From NCBI RefSeq assembly GCF_000739615.1, contig NZ_BATP01000060.1, forward strand, positions 124,001 through 188,000: 64,000 nt of DNA. Reading direction: 5' to 3'. Shown piece by piece: positions 40,339 to 48,070 of the stretch. This stretch comes from Haloferula sp. BvORR071. GTDB lineage: Bacteria; Verrucomicrobiota; Verrucomicrobiia; Verrucomicrobiales; Akkermansiaceae. The notes under the pieces are model-generated. The model ran no database searches. It was given only the letters and a program-made list of their open reading frames with translations, and had not been told where the DNA came from. Numbering within the stretch: the first letter of the stretch is position 1; the number at the start of each line of letters is the position of its first letter. A program made the translations under genes and the position numbers.

Positions 40339-40791
40339 TCAATCCCACACATATCGCTCGTCCCATTCCACTCCACAGCGTTTGAGGAGTCGGCGATATT
40401 CGTCCTGGAATGTCGTGACGCGATGATGCTCGGCTTGGTTGTTGATGTAATGTTCGACTTTCTCGCGATGGGTGGCGCTGATGGAGAATATGCCGTAGCC
40501 GTTTTGCCAGTGGAAGGAGAGCAGGCGTTTGTCGCGTTCCTTGAGCCACTTGGAGGAGCCGGCCTTGATCTCCTTTACCAACTCCGCGGGCGCAATCGTG
40601 CGGGGAAGGGAGATCAGGAGATGAATGTGGTCCGGCATGGAGCCAGCGGCTAACAGTACTCCATTGCGCTGGGAGATAATGCCGCCGATGTAGGAGTACA
40701 GGTCCTCGCGGAGATGATCCGGGATGATTGGCGCGCGGTCCTTGGTGGAGAAGACGAGATGAACGAGAAGGGAGGAGAGGGATTGCGGCAT
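40339..40791 (-). CDS. REP-associated tyrosine transposase (Y1_Tnp, IS200-like)
   Basis: 150 residues from the ATG at 40791 (MPQSLSSLLVHLVFSTKDR, the usual family start; an ATG at 40827 is in frame but less likely). The HUH metal motif is H55-I-H57 in DHIHLLIS and the catalytic Tyr is probably Y115 in VEHYINNQ, with Q119 at the assisting position. The C-terminus FQDEYRRLLKRCGVEWDERYVWD is typical of stand-alone RAYT proteins. These act on REP hairpins rather than moving as a classic IS. The gene looks intact. Confidence 0.9.
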   Translation of the reverse strand: MPQSLSSLLVHLVFSTKDRAPIIPDHLREDLYSYIGGIISQRNGVLLAAGSMPDHIHLLISLPRTIAPAELVKEIKAGSSKWLKERDKRLLSFHWQNGYGIFSISATHREKVEHYINNQAEHHRVTTFQDEYRRLLKRCGVEWDERYVWD

Positions 40792-40840
40792 TGTCCCGAG
40801 AATGGTAGATCGGGGACGTGGGATCAAGAGAGGGCTACGG

Positions 40841-41033: not shown

Positions 41034-41444
41034 TCACCTCACCAACTCCCGCTCCCTCTTCTGCTTCGGCTGGAAGGGGACCACGAAGGCGTCGTCGAAG
41101 TCGTAGACGTGGGCGAAGTCTTCGCGGGTGTCGCTGTCCTGCTTGCCGAACATCTGCTCCTCGATGAGGTGGAAGACCATCTCGCCGACGTCGGAGGTCC
41201 CGCGCAGGCCCCACTCGATCATGAGAGTGCCGGACATAGGGCCAAACTGCTGGAGGGCGAGGTCGCGGAAACCCTGGCAAAGTTCCACGCCGGTGACGTG
41301 GCGGCCTTCGCCGTCGTTGCTATCGGCCGCCCGCTTGAGGGTAAAGTCGAGCGACTCTTTCAAGAAGAGGTAGGCAAGGGGATCATAGCGCTTGTCGCGC
41401 TTGAAGATCGATTCGACGGCTTGTTCGAATTGCAGGGCCTTCAT
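41034..41444 (-). CDS. Minf_1886-family conserved protein
   Basis: 136 residues from the ATG at 41444 (MKALQFEQAVESIFKRDKRYDPLAYLFLKESLDFTLKRA). The conserved blocks HVTGVELCQGFRDLALQQFGPM, LMIEWGLRGTSDVGEMVFHLIE and DFDDAF identify this small soluble family, which appears restricted to Planctomycetes and Verrucomicrobia. It has no known function. It is the last gene before a 100-bp gap and lies downstream of the two PBP genes on the same strand, so it may share their transcript. A DNA motif CTGTTAG occurs twice just upstream (41485 and 41507). Confidence 0.82.
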   Translation of the reverse strand: MKALQFEQAVESIFKRDKRYDPLAYLFLKESLDFTLKRAADSNDGEGRHVTGVELCQGFRDLALQQFGPMSGTLMIEWGLRGTSDVGEMVFHLIEEQMFGKQDSDTREDFAHVYDFDDAFVVPFQPKQKRERELVR

Positions 41445-41544: not shown

Positions 41545-43269
41545 TCAGTTGCCGAGGCGCTTGGCGATGTCCCCGAGCACCTCGTCCAACTGGGCGGGCG
41601 AGCTGATCTTCTGCGGCTGATCGAAGCCGACCCAGATGGCGGTGGAGCCCTTCGGGCCGAGCCGCGCGAGCCAGGCATCCCGTCCCGAGCCGGTCGCCCC
41701 ACCGTAAACCCGGGTGCCAGCGGTGCTTTCCAACAGGGCCGCGGCCTCCTTCGCCGCCGGGGCGCCGATGGCCGGGCTGAGGTTGGGCTTGGCTTGGTAG
41801 AGGACCTTGCCGTCGGTGGTGGTGATCGATTGGATCAGGAAGGGCTTGGGGCGGTTGCCGCTGTTACCCAGCGTGGCGAGACCGGTGGCCAACTCCATCG
41901 GCGTGGCGGCGGCGATGCCGCGGAAAACGTCTTCCGATTCCTGGAAGGGGCCGGTGATGCCGCAGCGCTTGGCGATGCGGACAGTCTCCCGCGGGCCAAT
42001 CTGGCGGCCGGTTTGCACCGGCTTGCCCGGCAGCACCAGCTTGCCGCGCTCGGAGGCGGCGGCGGCGATCCATGGCTCGAAGGCGGCCCCTAGGTCGCGG
42101 CGGGCACCGGTGCTGCGGTCGAAGCGGGAGTGCGCGTAGTCGCGGCCACCGACCAAGCCGAGGATACCGCCCGATTTGGTTTCCAGGGTGACGGCCGCAC
42201 ACTGGAGGTAGGTGGGCTCCTCGCCCGCCTGATAGCTCGCAAACACCGGATATTTCCAGTCCTTCGATTGCTCGATCTTGAGCAGGGAAGCTGCGAGATC
42301 GGCCTCCAGTCGTGCCTGCCAGCCGCTGTCCAGGGTGCTGTGGACGATCAGGCCGCCATCGCGGATGTCCTCGTCGTCGATGATCTCCTGGAGTTCCTTC
42401 TGCACCGCCTCCTGCACATAGGAGAGTTCGGTGGTGCGCTTCTCCTGCGGGACCAGCTTGATCGGGATCTTGCTGATGCGCTCGATGTCGGCATCGGTGA
42501 CGAATTTCATCGTCTTCATCCGCGCCAGCACCTGCGACTCCTGTTCCTTGGCGGCGTCCAGATTGCGGAAGGGCGAGAAGATGTGCGGGCCGCGGATGAT
42601 GCCGACGATCATCGCGCACTCGGCCTCGTTCAGAGCGGAGACCGGCTTGCCGAAGTAGGTCCGCGCCGCTTGGTCCACGCCATGGCAACCGGCCCCGAAG
42701 TAGATGCGGTTCAGGTAATTCGCGAGGATCTCGTCCTTCGAATACCTCGATTCGATCCGCAGGGTCAGGGCGATCTCCAGCAGCTTGCGGTGGATCGACT
42801 TTTCCTTCAGCTGCTTGTGCTCCTCGCCGTAGGTGTTGCGGGCCAGCTGCATGGAGAGGGTGGAAGCCCCCTGCGTGAACTTCCCGTCTCCAACGTTGCG
42901 GAAGGTGGCTCGCGCCAGACCGATGGGATCGACCCCCCAGTGGGTGTAGAAGTCCTTGTCCTCGCGGGCGCAGAGGGCATGCACCAGGAAATCCGGAAGA
43001 TCCTTGCGGGTGATCAGGCTGCGGTTATTGCCGCCGGCACTGCCGATATGGGTGCCATTGCGGTCGAGGATCAGGGTCCGGGCCGGCATCTTGCCGACTT
43101 CCGCGAGATCGAAGCGCGAAGCCTCGGAAAAGAAGTAGAGAGCGACGATCAGACCGACGAGCGCCAGGAAGAAGCCTCCCCACAAGCTCCAGCGGATCAG
43201 CGTGCGCAGCCACTCCGGCATCCAGACCTGCCAGGCCGGAATTTTGCGGGTGCTACGCCAGGAAGACAT
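41545..43269 (-). CDS. PBP1-type peptidoglycan glycosyltransferase with a degenerate transpeptidase domain
   Basis: 574 residues: cytoplasmic tail, one membrane helix (about 28-48), GT51 domain with E103 in REDKDFYTH and QGASTLSMQLARN, then a transpeptidase-like domain. In that domain the SxxK motif reads AAFE (A395, E398), no SxN motif is found where expected, and KTG reads ATG (A525-T-G527). All three penicillin-binding motifs are therefore lost, while surrounding text such as GGRDYAHSRFDRSTG and STAIWVGFD still aligns with the neighbour. It is probably an active glycan polymerase with a pseudo-transpeptidase. It follows the intact PBP gene by 34 bp. Confidence 0.88.
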   Translation of the reverse strand: MSSWRSTRKIPAWQVWMPEWLRTLIRWSLWGGFFLALVGLIVALYFFSEASRFDLAEVGKMPARTLILDRNGTHIGSAGGNNRSLITRKDLPDFLVHALCAREDKDFYTHWGVDPIGLARATFRNVGDGKFTQGASTLSMQLARNTYGEEHKQLKEKSIHRKLLEIALTLRIESRYSKDEILANYLNRIYFGAGCHGVDQAARTYFGKPVSALNEAECAMIVGIIRGPHIFSPFRNLDAAKEQESQVLARMKTMKFVTDADIERISKIPIKLVPQEKRTTELSYVQEAVQKELQEIIDDEDIRDGGLIVHSTLDSGWQARLEADLAASLLKIEQSKDWKYPVFASYQAGEEPTYLQCAAVTLETKSGGILGLVGGRDYAHSRFDRSTGARRDLGAAFEPWIAAAASERGKLVLPGKPVQTGRQIGPRETVRIAKRCGITGPFQESEDVFRGIAAATPMELATGLATLGNSGNRPKPFLIQSITTTDGKVLYQAKPNLSPAIGAPAAKEAAALLESTAGTRVYGGATGSGRDAWLARLGPKGSTAIWVGFDQPQKISSPAQLDEVLGDIAKRLGN

Positions 43270-43303
43270 ATGGGGTTAGATCGGTGTTTTGTGGGTTTCC
43301 CTC

Positions 43304-45691
43304 TTACTCCTCTTCAACCGGGATGGCTTTCAGGGGCAGGGGAGCCTCTTCCTCGTCCTTGATCGGGCCGAGATCTATCGGCTCGGCCTTGAGGGCGGCC
43401 TCGTCCACGGTTTCGGCCTTGGGCGCGCCATCGACGGCCAAGTCGGCTTCGCTCACGGCGAGAGCCTTGGCCGGATGGATCGGGCAGAGTGCGTTTTCGG
43501 GCGGCAGCTCTTCCTTGGAAACGCTGTCGGTGTAGGCCTCGCCGGCGGCCTCGCAGCCGGGCGTGGCGCGCTTGCCGGAGGCGCGGCAGAGGCGGCACTC
43601 AACAAAGGAGAGCTGGGATTTGATGCCCTCCGCCTTGTAGTCGAGCTTATCGGCGGTCTTCATGATCTCCACCCATACCGGCAAGGCGAGGGTCGAACCG
43701 TAGCCCTTCTCGATGGTCTTCTTCGGGGTATCGAGGCCGACCCACACGGCGCAGGTGATGCTGGAGGTGTAGCCCGCGAACCACGCATCGCGATACTCGT
43801 TGGTGGTGCCGGTCTTGCCGCCGCAGGGCTTGAGGAAGCCCAGGGACTTCACGGCTGCCGCAGTGCCGCGCTCGGTGACTTCGCGGAGGATGTTGTTCAC
43901 CGCCCAGGCCGAGCCGGGGCGGGTCGCCTCGTAGGATTTCGGCAGGTTCTGGAAGAGGATGTTCCCGTCGCGGTCGCGGATCTCGGAAATCAGCCGCGGC
44001 TGATAGCGCACTCCGACATTCGGGAAGATGGTGTAGGCGGAGGCGACCTCGTAGGTGCTCGCTTCCCAAGAGCCGAGGAAGGAGATCGGGCTCTTCGGCA
44101 TCTTCGTCTTGAAGCCGACCGACTCCGCGACTTCGCCCACGGCGTCGATTCCCGCGCGGTTGCCGACACGCACGGACATGGTGTTGCGCGAGCGGATCAG
44201 GCCGACCGAGGCGGGCATGTAGCCGCCATATTTGCCGTCGGAGTTGTCGGGTGACCAGCCGCGGGCACCCTTGATCTCGCCACGGATCAGACGGCCGTCG
44301 TTGATCAGCGTGTCCGGGCGCAGGCCGGCATCGAAGCCAGCGACATAGACGAAGGGCTTGAAGACCGAGCCGATCTGGCGCTTGCCCTGCATCGCGCGGT
44401 TGAAACGCGATTCATCCGCATTCCGTCCGCCGACGACGGCGAGCACGGCACCGGTGAGGTTCTCGATCGCGACCACGCTGCCCTGGAGATACTGGGGCGG
44501 GGGCTTGTTCTCACCCGGCAGTTCCTTCCACGCCGCGCGCGTCTGGTGCTGGTAGCCGGGCGAGCGCTCGACTTGGCGGAGCTTGGCGTCGAGGGCGTCC
44601 TCGGCCTTCTTCTGCAGCAGGCTGTCGATGGTGGTGGTGATCTTCAGGCCACCCATCTCGATATTCTCACTCTCCAGGATCCGCTCGAGTTCCTGGCCGA
44701 CGGCGTCCATCGCGTAGCTGTCGTGGAAAGACCGACGCCATTCCGGGCGGATATTGATCGGCTCCTTCTTGGCCGCCTCTGCCTGTTCCAGGGTGATGAA
44801 TTGCTCCCGCACCATGCTGTCTAGAGTGGTGTCCCGCTCGTGGCGTGCGCCATCGATGGTCTTGAAGGGGGAGAAGGCATTCGGACCGCGGATGATCCCC
44901 GCGAGCAGAGCGGATTCGGAGAGGGTGAGCTCCTTGGCGCTCTTCTCGAAATAGGTCCGGGAGGCTTCTTCCAGACCGCGGATATTGTGCCCCAGGAAGA
45001 CGCGGTTCAGGTAGTGCTGCATGATCTGCTGCTTGTCCGGATAAGCAGCTTCGAGGCGGTAGGAGACGGCGACTTCCAGGAGCTTGCGGTCCAGTTCCTG
45101 GATTTTCGGCGAGAAATTGAGCAGCTGGCTCTTGAGCGGGAAGGTATTGCGGGCGAGCTGCATGGTCAGGGTGGAGGCCCCTTGGGCCATGCCGCGGCGT
45201 TTGAAATTCTCGACCACCGAGCGTCCCACGCCGACCCAGTCCACGCCGCCGTGCTTGTAGAAGCGCTTATCCTCGCGGGCCAGGATCGCGAAAATGAAGT
45301 CCTGCGAGACATTGGCGATGTCGATGACGTCGCGTTTTTCGCCGTGGATCCGGCCGAGTTCCACGCCCTTGCGGTCGTAGACGATCGTGCGCTGGGGCAT
45401 CTCCGCGACCTTGTTCATGTCGTAGGGCCGGGCGCGGACGTAGTAGATGACGCCCAGGGAGAAAGCCACGTAGAGCCCGGCGATGCAGAGGTCTCCGCCC
45501 AGGCGCAGCGGGATCCGGAGGAACTTCGGCAGCGGCCTGAGGAGCGCGTGGAAAATCAGGAAGGGCCAGAAAAGGATGATCGAGCCGAGTGCGGGCGGCC
45601 TGAATTCCGGCGTTTTCTTGCGGTTGGAAGCGCGTGGGTCGGCGGATTTACCGGAATTTTTGCCCGGGTCCTTCGAGGATGGATTCGGCAT
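43304..45691 (-). CDS. Penicillin-binding protein 1A-type (glycosyltransferase/transpeptidase)
   Basis: 795 residues: basic cytoplasmic tail (1-~38), membrane helix (about 65-85), GT51 domain with E140 in REDKRFYKHGGV and QGASTLTMQLARN, and transpeptidase domain with all motifs: SVFK (S442, K445), SRN (501-503) and KTG (626-628). The C-terminal ~90 residues are acidic and end with a Cys-rich stretch (ECRLCRASGKRATPGCEA). A bifunctional class A PBP; it polymerises lipid II glycan and cross-links the peptides at the outer face of the inner membrane. It is divergent from the HtrA-like gene. Confidence 0.92.
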   Translation of the reverse strand: MPNPSSKDPGKNSGKSADPRASNRKKTPEFRPPALGSIILFWPFLIFHALLRPLPKFLRIPLRLGGDLCIAGLYVAFSLGVIYYVRARPYDMNKVAEMPQRTIVYDRKGVELGRIHGEKRDVIDIANVSQDFIFAILAREDKRFYKHGGVDWVGVGRSVVENFKRRGMAQGASTLTMQLARNTFPLKSQLLNFSPKIQELDRKLLEVAVSYRLEAAYPDKQQIMQHYLNRVFLGHNIRGLEEASRTYFEKSAKELTLSESALLAGIIRGPNAFSPFKTIDGARHERDTTLDSMVREQFITLEQAEAAKKEPINIRPEWRRSFHDSYAMDAVGQELERILESENIEMGGLKITTTIDSLLQKKAEDALDAKLRQVERSPGYQHQTRAAWKELPGENKPPPQYLQGSVVAIENLTGAVLAVVGGRNADESRFNRAMQGKRQIGSVFKPFVYVAGFDAGLRPDTLINDGRLIRGEIKGARGWSPDNSDGKYGGYMPASVGLIRSRNTMSVRVGNRAGIDAVGEVAESVGFKTKMPKSPISFLGSWEASTYEVASAYTIFPNVGVRYQPRLISEIRDRDGNILFQNLPKSYEATRPGSAWAVNNILREVTERGTAAAVKSLGFLKPCGGKTGTTNEYRDAWFAGYTSSITCAVWVGLDTPKKTIEKGYGSTLALPVWVEIMKTADKLDYKAEGIKSQLSFVECRLCRASGKRATPGCEAAGEAYTDSVSKEELPPENALCPIHPAKALAVSEADLAVDGAPKAETVDEAALKAEPIDLGPIKDEEEAPLPLKAIPVEEE

Positions 45692-45709
45692 GGACTTGGT
45701 GAAATTACA

Positions 45710-45722
45710 GCGGATGATCCGC
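45710..45722. promoter_or_regulatory. 13-bp palindrome in the PBP/HtrA divergent region
   Basis: GCGGAT-G-ATCCGC is perfectly symmetric, in the 100-bp region between the divergent PBP and HtrA-like genes. It could let one regulator act on both sides. Confidence 0.35.
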
Positions 45723-45791
45723 CGAGGCGATGGCGATGTGCCGGATCAGACGAAGACGGCGCGCGGTATCGCTTCGGTGTGTGACGAAGCG

Positions 45792-46778
45792 ATGAAGCAC
45801 AAAAGATTTTTCCATGGATTGGCCGGTGCCGCCCTCGGGGCGGCGTTGCTATGTCCGGCGTGGGCGCGAGATCCCGTGACCACGCTTGAGGACGTGCGCA
45901 AGCTCGAACAGAAAATCTCGGCCGTGGCAACCAAAGCCATGCCCGCGACCGTGGCGCTGATCTCCGAGGCCTCCGGCGCGTCCGGATCCGGCGTGATCAC
46001 CTCCGCGGACGGGCTGATCCTGACCGCTGCCCACGTGATCGAGGGCGCGGAGACGGTCCAGGTGGTTTTCCCGGACGGCAGGCAGGCCACCGGCGAGGTT
46101 CTGGGCGCCAATTTGTCCAAGGACATCGGAATGGTCAAAATCAAGGAACCGGGTCCTTGGCCCTTCATTGAACGCGGCGAATCCAAGCCGCTTGAAGCGG
46201 GGGACTGGGTGATCGCAATGGGCCATTCCGCGGGATTTGACGCCGCGCGGACGCCGCCGGTGCGCTTCGGCCGGGTGGTTTCGGATGGCCCGGGGAATTT
46301 CCTGACCACGGATTGCACGCTGATCGGCGGGGATTCCGGCGGCCCGCTGTTCAATCTGGAAGGCAAGGTCGTGGGGATCAATTCCTCGATCGGCAAGGAC
46401 CTGAAGAACAACAACCACGCGGGCGTGGACGGCTTCAAGGAAGACTGGGACCGCCTGATGGCCAAGGAAGTCTGGGGTGAACTCCAGATGAACCCGATGG
46501 CCAATCCCGAGCGTGCGAGCCTCGGCATTGCGATCGGCAATCCGGTCCGCGGTGGCGGTGTGATCGTCGAAGGTGTGTCCGCTCACGCCTCGAAGGCCGG
46601 ACTGCGGCCGGGAGACGTGATCGTGACGATCGACGAAACGAAGGTCTCCGACGGAGGATTCTTGCAAAGGTTCCTCGCGAAGAAGCAGGCCGGAGACAAG
46701 GTCAAGCTCGTGATCAAGCGCGGCGGTGACTCGAAGGAATTGGAAGTGGAACTGATCAAGAAGGGAGAAATCAAGTGA
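45792..46778 (+). CDS. Secreted HtrA/DegP-like serine protease
   Basis: 328 residues from the ATG at 45792 (signal peptide MKHKRFFHGLAGAALGAALLCPAWA); the frame is open upstream but overlaps the PBP gene. The trypsin-like domain (about 45-240) has an intact triad: H81 in TAAHVIEG, D111 in SKDIGMVKI and S182 in GGDSGGPLF. One PDZ domain follows (about 245-325; AHASKAGLRPGDVIVTIDE). HtrA proteins degrade damaged envelope proteins. Its stop overlaps the next gene's GTG start (GTGA, 4 bp), so the two are translationally coupled. Confidence 0.9.
   Translation: MKHKRFFHGLAGAALGAALLCPAWARDPVTTLEDVRKLEQKISAVATKAMPATVALISEASGASGSGVITSADGLILTAAHVIEGAETVQVVFPDGRQATGEVLGANLSKDIGMVKIKEPGPWPFIERGESKPLEAGDWVIAMGHSAGFDAARTPPVRFGRVVSDGPGNFLTTDCTLIGGDSGGPLFNLEGKVVGINSSIGKDLKNNNHAGVDGFKEDWDRLMAKEVWGELQMNPMANPERASLGIAIGNPVRGGGVIVEGVSAHASKAGLRPGDVIVTIDETKVSDGGFLQRFLAKKQAGDKVKLVIKRGGDSKELEVELIKKGEIK
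46763..46767 (+). promoter_or_regulatory. Shine-Dalgarno supporting the GTG start at 46775
   Basis: GGGAG lies 7 nt before the GTG at 46775 and inside the end of the preceding gene, favouring the coupled GTG start over the ATG at 46793. Confidence 0.55.
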
Positions 46779-48070
46779 GCTCTTTTCCGAAAATGAAAAC
46801 GACTTTGATGGCGGTCCTGCTGACTGCGGCCATGCTCGGAACGAGCCACGCGCAGCGCCAGCGGCAAGCACGCGAGAGCGAGCCGGAGGTGCCGATGATG
46901 CGGCCGGAGGAGGCCCGCGCGATCCAGGCCCAGCGCTCGGAATTCTTTGACGCGATCCGCCCGGTGACCCAGACGGCCCGCCTGTCCACGGTGTGGATTT
47001 GGGCGGATACCGGCCGCGGCCGCAAGCCGGTCGGCTTCGGCACGGTGGTGGGGGATGGCAGCAAGGTGCTGACCAAGTGGAGCGAGATCGCGATGGCGGA
47101 AGGCACGATCCTGGTGGTCGGCCACGACAGCGCCTCCGCGAAGGCGACGGTGGCCGGCGTCTATCAAGAGGATGATCTGGCGATGCTGACCTTGGATGGC
47201 GCGAAGTTCCAACCGGTCACGCTGGCGAAGGGTGATGCCCCGAAGCTCGGCAAGATGCTGGTGGCGGCTTCCCCGGAAGACTCGCCGGCCGGATTCGGCG
47301 TGGTGGCGGTGGAGTCCCGTTCGCTGCGGGATTCGGACCAAGCCTTTCTCGGTGTCGGTCTTGAACCGAAATACAAGGGCAGCGGCGTGAAAATCGGTGA
47401 GATCCAGAAGGGCAGTGCTGCCTTGGATGCCGGACTTTCTGAGGGCGATGTGATCTTGGCTCTGGGCGGACGTTCCGTGAACAGCTCCTTCGAGCTGCGC
47501 AATGCGCTGACCGGCCATCGCCCCGGAGAGCGGGTCGAGGTCCGCTATCAGCGCGGCGGCAAGGATGCCGTGGCCAATGTCTTGCTCAAGGAGAAGAAGG
47601 AATACGAAGGCGTACCGAACGGCCGCCTGCGGATGATGGAGCGGATGGGAACCAATCCCAGCTTGGTGCGCAGCGGCTTCCCCGCGGCGCTCCAGACCGA
47701 CATGCCGCTGGAGCGTGATCGCTGCGGTGGCCCGGTCGTGGATCTGGACGGCAAGGTGATCGGTATCGCCATCGCCCGCGCCGACCGCACCCGGAGCTTC
47801 ATCATTCCATCAGCGCACCTGACGCAGATTTTGGCCACCGATCCGAGCAGCGTGGACGCCGCCCGCCTCGCGATGGAGAAGGAAGAACAAGACCGCCAGG
47901 CCGTGGCGCAGAATCAACAGGACGACGAGGACGGCGGCGGCCGTCCGGCTCCCCGGATGGTGCCGATGAAGCGCCAGTCCGCCGAAGCCCTGCGCCGTCA
48001 CCTCACCGACATGGAGCGCCTGATGGAGCGCATGCGCGAGGAGATGGAAGGAATGGATGAAGGGGAGTGA
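46775..48070 (+). CDS. HtrA-like pseudoprotease with an inserted PDZ domain
   Basis: 431 residues from a coupled GTG (alternative ATG 46793); signal peptide ends near ...GTSHA. The trypsin-fold strands are present, but the catalytic His position holds W102 (KVLTKWSEI, where HtrA has TNAHV), D134 is kept (EDDLAMLTL), and the Ser position is C317 (DRCGGPVVDLDG). The PDZ domain (about 189-270) lies before this CGGP block, that is, between Asp and Ser positions, instead of at the C-terminus. A Glu/Met/Arg-rich helical tail follows. Likely a non-proteolytic partner, sensor or chaperone of the preceding HtrA; a Cys protease is unlikely without His. Confidence 0.85.
   Translation: MSSFPKMKTTLMAVLLTAAMLGTSHAQRQRQARESEPEVPMMRPEEARAIQAQRSEFFDAIRPVTQTARLSTVWIWADTGRGRKPVGFGTVVGDGSKVLTKWSEIAMAEGTILVVGHDSASAKATVAGVYQEDDLAMLTLDGAKFQPVTLAKGDAPKLGKMLVAASPEDSPAGFGVVAVESRSLRDSDQAFLGVGLEPKYKGSGVKIGEIQKGSAALDAGLSEGDVILALGGRSVNSSFELRNALTGHRPGERVEVRYQRGGKDAVANVLLKEKKEYEGVPNGRLRMMERMGTNPSLVRSGFPAALQTDMPLERDRCGGPVVDLDGKVIGIAIARADRTRSFIIPSAHLTQILATDPSSVDAARLAMEKEEQDRQAVAQNQQDDEDGGGRPAPRMVPMKRQSAEALRRHLTDMERLMERMREEMEGMDEGE

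Follow-up and report, generated by a model that had tools for sequence, protein, structure and literature searches.

Textbooks present class A penicillin-binding proteins (PBPs) as bifunctional enzymes, and they are among the main targets of antibiotics. GT51 enzymes that are monofunctional have been described, as have PBPs inactivated in the laboratory. In Bacillus subtilis, for example, the S309A version of PBP 2B is inactive yet has a structural role, with PBP 3 supplying the catalysis (PMC5656894). Here, we analyse two tandem class A PBP genes, A and B, in a window of 64,000 nucleotides from Haloferula sp. BvORR071 (contig NZ_BATP01000060.1, positions 124,001 to 188,000), a member of the Akkermansiaceae. 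B retains its glycosyltransferase (GT) and the fold of its transpeptidase (TP) domain, while all three TP motifs have been lost.

Like the bifunctional class A PBPs (PBP1a and PBP1b), B has a transmembrane anchor, a GT51 domain, a linker and a TP fold in the same order, and it is directly homologous to A and to PBP1a/1b from Escherichia coli and Acinetobacter baumannii. Unlike them, it lacks the SxxK lysine, SxN and KTG, carries a deletion in the active-site wall, and scores below the TIGR02074 and PF00905 cut-offs. B also resembles the monofunctional GT51 enzymes MtgA/MGT (TIGR02070), as it is predicted to polymerise glycan without crosslinking it; however, MtgA has no C-terminal domain, whereas B keeps about 320 conserved residues past the GT. 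With PBP 2B S309A, B shares a TP domain whose importance does not depend on catalysis, which another PBP provides. That protein, however, is a class B PBP mutated in the laboratory (PMC5656894), while B belongs to class A, occurs in nature and is fixed across a family. The open-access literature yielded no report of a naturally occurring class A PBP with a dead TP in Verrucomicrobiota, which is not proof of absence; nor did the open-access papers searched describe one that is natural, family-wide and keeps a pseudo-transpeptidase under selection.

Transpeptidase motifs, fold and constraint in B

The features on which the comparison rests are the following:

Gene B, 41545..43269, minus strand: class A PBP with GT51 and pseudo-transpeptidase domains, 574 amino acids
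Gene A, 43304..45691, minus strand: intact bifunctional class A PBP, 795 amino acids, directly upstream of B
GT51 domain of B, 42514..43053, minus strand: residues 73-252, catalytic motifs intact, 191 bits; E103, D104, E165 and the GAST motif invariant
TP-like domain of B, 41548..42213, minus strand: residues 353-574, predicted catalytically dead, with a modelled TP fold
AAFE replacing SxxK in B, 42076..42087, minus strand: residues 395-398
Deletion junction of B, SxN region removed, 42013..42045, minus strand: residues 409-419, followed by the conserved T420-G421-R422
ATG replacing KTG in B, 41689..41697, minus strand: residues 525-527
SVFK (SxxK motif) of A, 44357..44368, minus strand: residues 442-445
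SRN (SxN motif) of A, 44183..44191, minus strand: residues 501-503
KTG motif of A, 43808..43816, minus strand: residues 626-628

An earlier, sequence-only reading of this DNA had proposed tandem PBP1 paralogs at 41545-45691, the upstream one with SVFK, SRN and KTG and the downstream one with a GT51 domain and a dead TP. Both open reading frames are indeed present there on the minus strand, separated by 34 bp with A transcriptionally upstream, and the motifs of A were recovered at the residues listed. The GT51 domain (Pfam PF00912) is matched in both proteins (A, 176 bits; B, 191 bits). In contrast, PF00905 gives a full-domain TP match in A (100 bits) and only a fragment in B (18.5 bits, below the cut-off of 22.1). 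B scores 341 bits and A 496 bits against TIGR02074 (PBP_1a_fam), with A just short of the cut-off of 508.75, while the 99 bits of B against TIGR02070 (cut-off 183) do not place it in MtgA. Of the features expected of a bifunctional class A PBP, B has a GT51 domain with its five motifs and a C-terminal TP fold, but not SxxK, SxN or KTG.

We aligned 75 B with 30 A sequences, and the motifs are lost in every B ortholog among them. None of the 75 B proteins has the SxxK lysine, although the serine is often retained: SAFE is the commonest state (47/75), so that AAFE, reported for the window, is a minority one (9/75). SxN is a gap in all 75 through one common deletion; that is, the motif was deleted and not substituted, with a net loss of about 42 residues from the stretch that runs from the SxxK helix to residue 419, part of the active-site wall included. 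About 20 further residues are missing ahead of the KTG strand, and no B protein has the KTG lysine; the placement of ATG opposite KTG depends on the alignment. No ortholog with intact motifs was found among the 75. Since the pattern is common to all of them while the A partners keep their motifs (SxxK and KTG in 30/30, SRN in 29/30, with one ARN), it is not due to chance. Judging from these residues, the TP-like domain of B should be unable to catalyse, and B should not be acylated by beta-lactams, both penicillin binding and DD-transpeptidation being predicted absent.

Despite these losses, the fold appears to be preserved. The AlphaFold2 model of B has a mean predicted local distance difference test score (pLDDT) of 83, with most of the TP-like domain above 90. 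Foldseek and VIA-align, the latter applied to Foldseek's own matches and thus not excluding other folds, give class A PBPs as matches over the length of the model, with Z scores of about 29-33; 290 residues superpose on Streptococcus pneumoniae PBP1b (9sg7) at 2.6 Å. Similarly, a profile made from the TP-like region alone matches A. baumannii PBP1a (E 7e-34).

The domain is also under purifying selection. The ratio of nonsynonymous to synonymous substitution rates (dN/dS), calculated by NG86 and to be read as an order of magnitude in these GC-rich, codon-biased genes, is 0.24 for the TP-like domain of B, 0.21 for its GT and 0.23 for the active TP of A when pooled over independent pairs, 0.16, 0.18 and 0.09, respectively, in the closest pairs, and 0.07-0.10 for the TP-like domain inside the Akkermansia muciniphila complex. 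The pseudo-TP is therefore strongly constrained, close to B's own GT. Conservation of the SxxK-helix region is 77% in B versus 75% in A. Moreover, R450, D392, E407 and T420 are near-invariant in B where A has fixed or preferred L, Q, D and V, respectively, and R408, R422, R435 and D447 are further near-invariant residues specific to B. These positions point to a constraint that may have changed rather than disappeared. The frame of B is open, with similar lengths, in all genomes of the genus and in every locus read, so no sign of neutral decay was found. With its fold kept, its catalytic residues lost and purifying selection acting on it, the TP-like domain shows the hallmarks of a pseudoenzyme.

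Distribution and origin of B and of a second clade

At the order and class levels, matches to the TP-like profile are confined to one family (f1, the Akkermansiaceae; 79/289 genomes in the order search), apart from one genome of family f3 (G088). The latter, a low-quality metagenome-assembled genome (77% complete, 3% contaminated), was treated as probable contamination. Contamination or mis-assembly of the window was rejected, as cultured members of Luteolibacter and Haloferula also carry B orthologs (L040, L041, L069, L088). When genomes were sampled across the phylum, only f1 had GT51 proteins 570-680 amino acids long, a length that we used as a proxy for B.

The TP-region profile misses Akkermansia (g3), but the idea that this genus lacks B was rejected because a long-branch row of an initial tree (L166) is a B ortholog. 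Indeed, 39/40 genomes of the genus carry one, including A. muciniphila (G090, 2,664,102 bp), and nearly all Akkermansiaceae carry B. The Akkermansia copies are about 600-640 amino acids long and more diverged, with GT51 intact. Pfam finds no transpeptidase in those scanned; the 19 diverged copies aligned share the deletion and lack SxxK, SxN and KTG, and a modelled copy still presents the TP fold (pLDDT 86, Z about 20). The TGR at the deletion junction is conserved from Luteolibacter to Akkermansia. In a tree built on the GT and linker columns, leaving out those of the TP, B and the Akkermansia copies form one group (Shimodaira-Hasegawa-like approximate likelihood ratio test, SH-aLRT, 100) with Akkermansia nested within it; therefore, the TP was lost once, near the base of the Akkermansiaceae.

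The gene order HtrA-like pair, A, B, Minf_1886 is conserved in Luteolibacter and Haloferula, and a deeply branching member of the family (L030) keeps A-B-Minf_1886. The last of these genes has a possible link with the cell wall:

Minf_1886 family gene (TIGR04138), 41034..41441, minus strand: syntenic neighbour directly downstream of B

In the window, the two neighbouring trypsin-like/PDZ (HtrA-type) genes lie at 45651-48070, divergent from A, and an IS200-like Y1 transposase (PF01797) is encoded close to the locus, at 40342-40827. A and B are 9-72 bp apart in most tandem loci. Three loci (L081, L041, L062) have 1.3-2.6 kb inserted between the two genes, and the insert of L041 bears a PD-(D/E)XK nuclease-like gene. 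The tandem pairing seen in the window is widespread and probably ancestral, but it is not obligatory: 25 loci have B without A within at least 2.5 kb upstream, and in Akkermansia B lies away from A, beside a tetratricopeptide repeat gene. This is most simply explained by a tandem duplication and a later relocation; the tree supports A and B as sisters weakly.

The window genome encodes five GT51 proteins. One of them (L002, G000:C60:282074-285619) falls in a clade of class A PBPs found across the order (clade C; SH-aLRT 99), which also includes L164, L250 from A. muciniphila and L231-L249. As in B, the TP nucleophile has been lost and the GT is intact: threonine replaces the SxxK serine (GTAFL, GTAFH, GTALL and others, for GSxxK), and the lysine is mostly lost. 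Unlike B, the TP is full-length, KTG is often kept, and one member from family f2 (L232) is intact, with SAFK, SKN and KTG. The loss of the nucleophile in clade C is independent of that in B.

As a broader observation, GT51 genes are entirely missing from 68/106 of the Verrucomicrobiota genomes sampled; therefore, class A PBP loss is common in the phylum. In the passages searched of an essential-gene study of Verrucomicrobium spinosum, the table lists PBPs of the ftsI/mrdA type (COG0768), and no class A PBP entry was seen (PMC12283558).

Role of B and alternative explanations

Two glutamates are the catalytic residues of GT51 enzymes, and both are invariant in B. Across B, the motifs ED..F..H.G, GAST..MQL, RK..E and IL..YLN are likewise invariant or nearly so. 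With all GT51 motifs conserved, we expect an active GT half, so that the complete B protein probably remains an enzyme. We consider it probable, with a fair margin of doubt, that B is a GT51 glycan-strand polymerase whose TP module turned into a pseudoenzyme in a single event close to the base of the Akkermansiaceae and has been kept as a folded, non-catalytic domain. Anchored in the membrane, B would polymerise lipid II without crosslinking it and would be insensitive to beta-lactams; the pseudo-TP could position or allosterically tune the GT domain, dock partners, or both; and the strands produced would be crosslinked in trans by A, the paralog with which B is usually co-encoded, or by other transpeptidases. 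The retained non-enzymatic role suggested by the sequence-only reading is thus the best explanation for the dead TP domain, but it probably does not extend to the whole protein.

Several observations weigh against this proposal. The linker is relaxed (dN/dS 0.35-0.44), constraint on the pseudo-TP in the closest pairs is a little weaker than on the active TP of A, and the dN/dS values themselves are rough. In addition, certain genera of the family with reduced genomes (g5, g6, g15) have lost B, which means that it is dispensable somewhere, and an obligatory A-B complex is unlikely, as many genomes do not have A next to B.

We could also speculate that B is a beta-lactam-insensitive back-up polymerase, the loss of the TP site having been selected because the GT works on when penicillins acylate the bifunctional PBPs, with the remainder of the domain serving as structural support only. 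Beta-lactam acylation depends on the serine and lysine of SxxK, and this lysine is missing in all B proteins; clade C lost the same residues independently. However, this idea, which we regard as unlikely, leaves unexplained the invariant residues of the pseudo-TP itself, as well as its retention in Akkermansia, where it takes an alignment and a modelled fold to recognise the domain. The same residues (D392, E407, R408, T420, R422, R435, D447 and R450), together with the TGR junction conserved from Luteolibacter to Akkermansia, would instead suit a former TP that gained a new activity or ligand through B-specific charged residues, as a sensor of muropeptides or envelope proteins or as a new catalytic centre. 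Yet there is no evidence for a pocket or a chemistry, and most of these residues are not retained in Akkermansia, so we find this alternative decidedly improbable.

Since one activity has already been lost, B could be imagined as a wholly non-enzymatic scaffold with an inactive GT too, but this is very hard to reconcile with the invariance of all GT51 motifs, both catalytic glutamates included, and with a GT dN/dS among the lowest of the domains. Finally, the loss of the active site, taken alone, would fit a pseudogene or an annotation artefact in a decaying copy, an explanation that can practically be dismissed given the open frames in every genome, the similar lengths, dN/dS well below 1 and family-wide retention.

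Class A PBPs of A. muciniphila and implications

The A. muciniphila genome (G090), assigned to this species by a 100% identical match to Amuc_1100, encodes three GT51 proteins. Its A protein is intact (SLFK, SRN, KTG), its B protein is dead (DLFT, with no SxN and no KTG), and its clade C protein is dead by sequence (TAIL, SKI, KTG). If these motifs are a guide, only one of the three should crosslink or bind penicillin. It is tempting to speculate, although we hold this only tentatively, that the class A PBP set of the Akkermansiaceae largely uncouples polymerisation from crosslinking: in A. muciniphila, B and C may be polymerases with regulatory pseudo-TPs, leaving crosslinking to one bifunctional PBP and to class B PBPs or L,D-transpeptidases.

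The value of a non-catalytic TP domain has otherwise been studied through point mutants. A natural, family-wide loss of transpeptidation with the domain retained is direct evolutionary evidence that the TP fold can be worth keeping without catalysis. This would alter how the effects of beta-lactams and cell-wall synthesis are read in Verrucomicrobiota. Moreover, the presence of B in A. muciniphila, a human gut bacterium, makes for a concrete prediction, namely that only one of its three class A PBPs binds penicillin.

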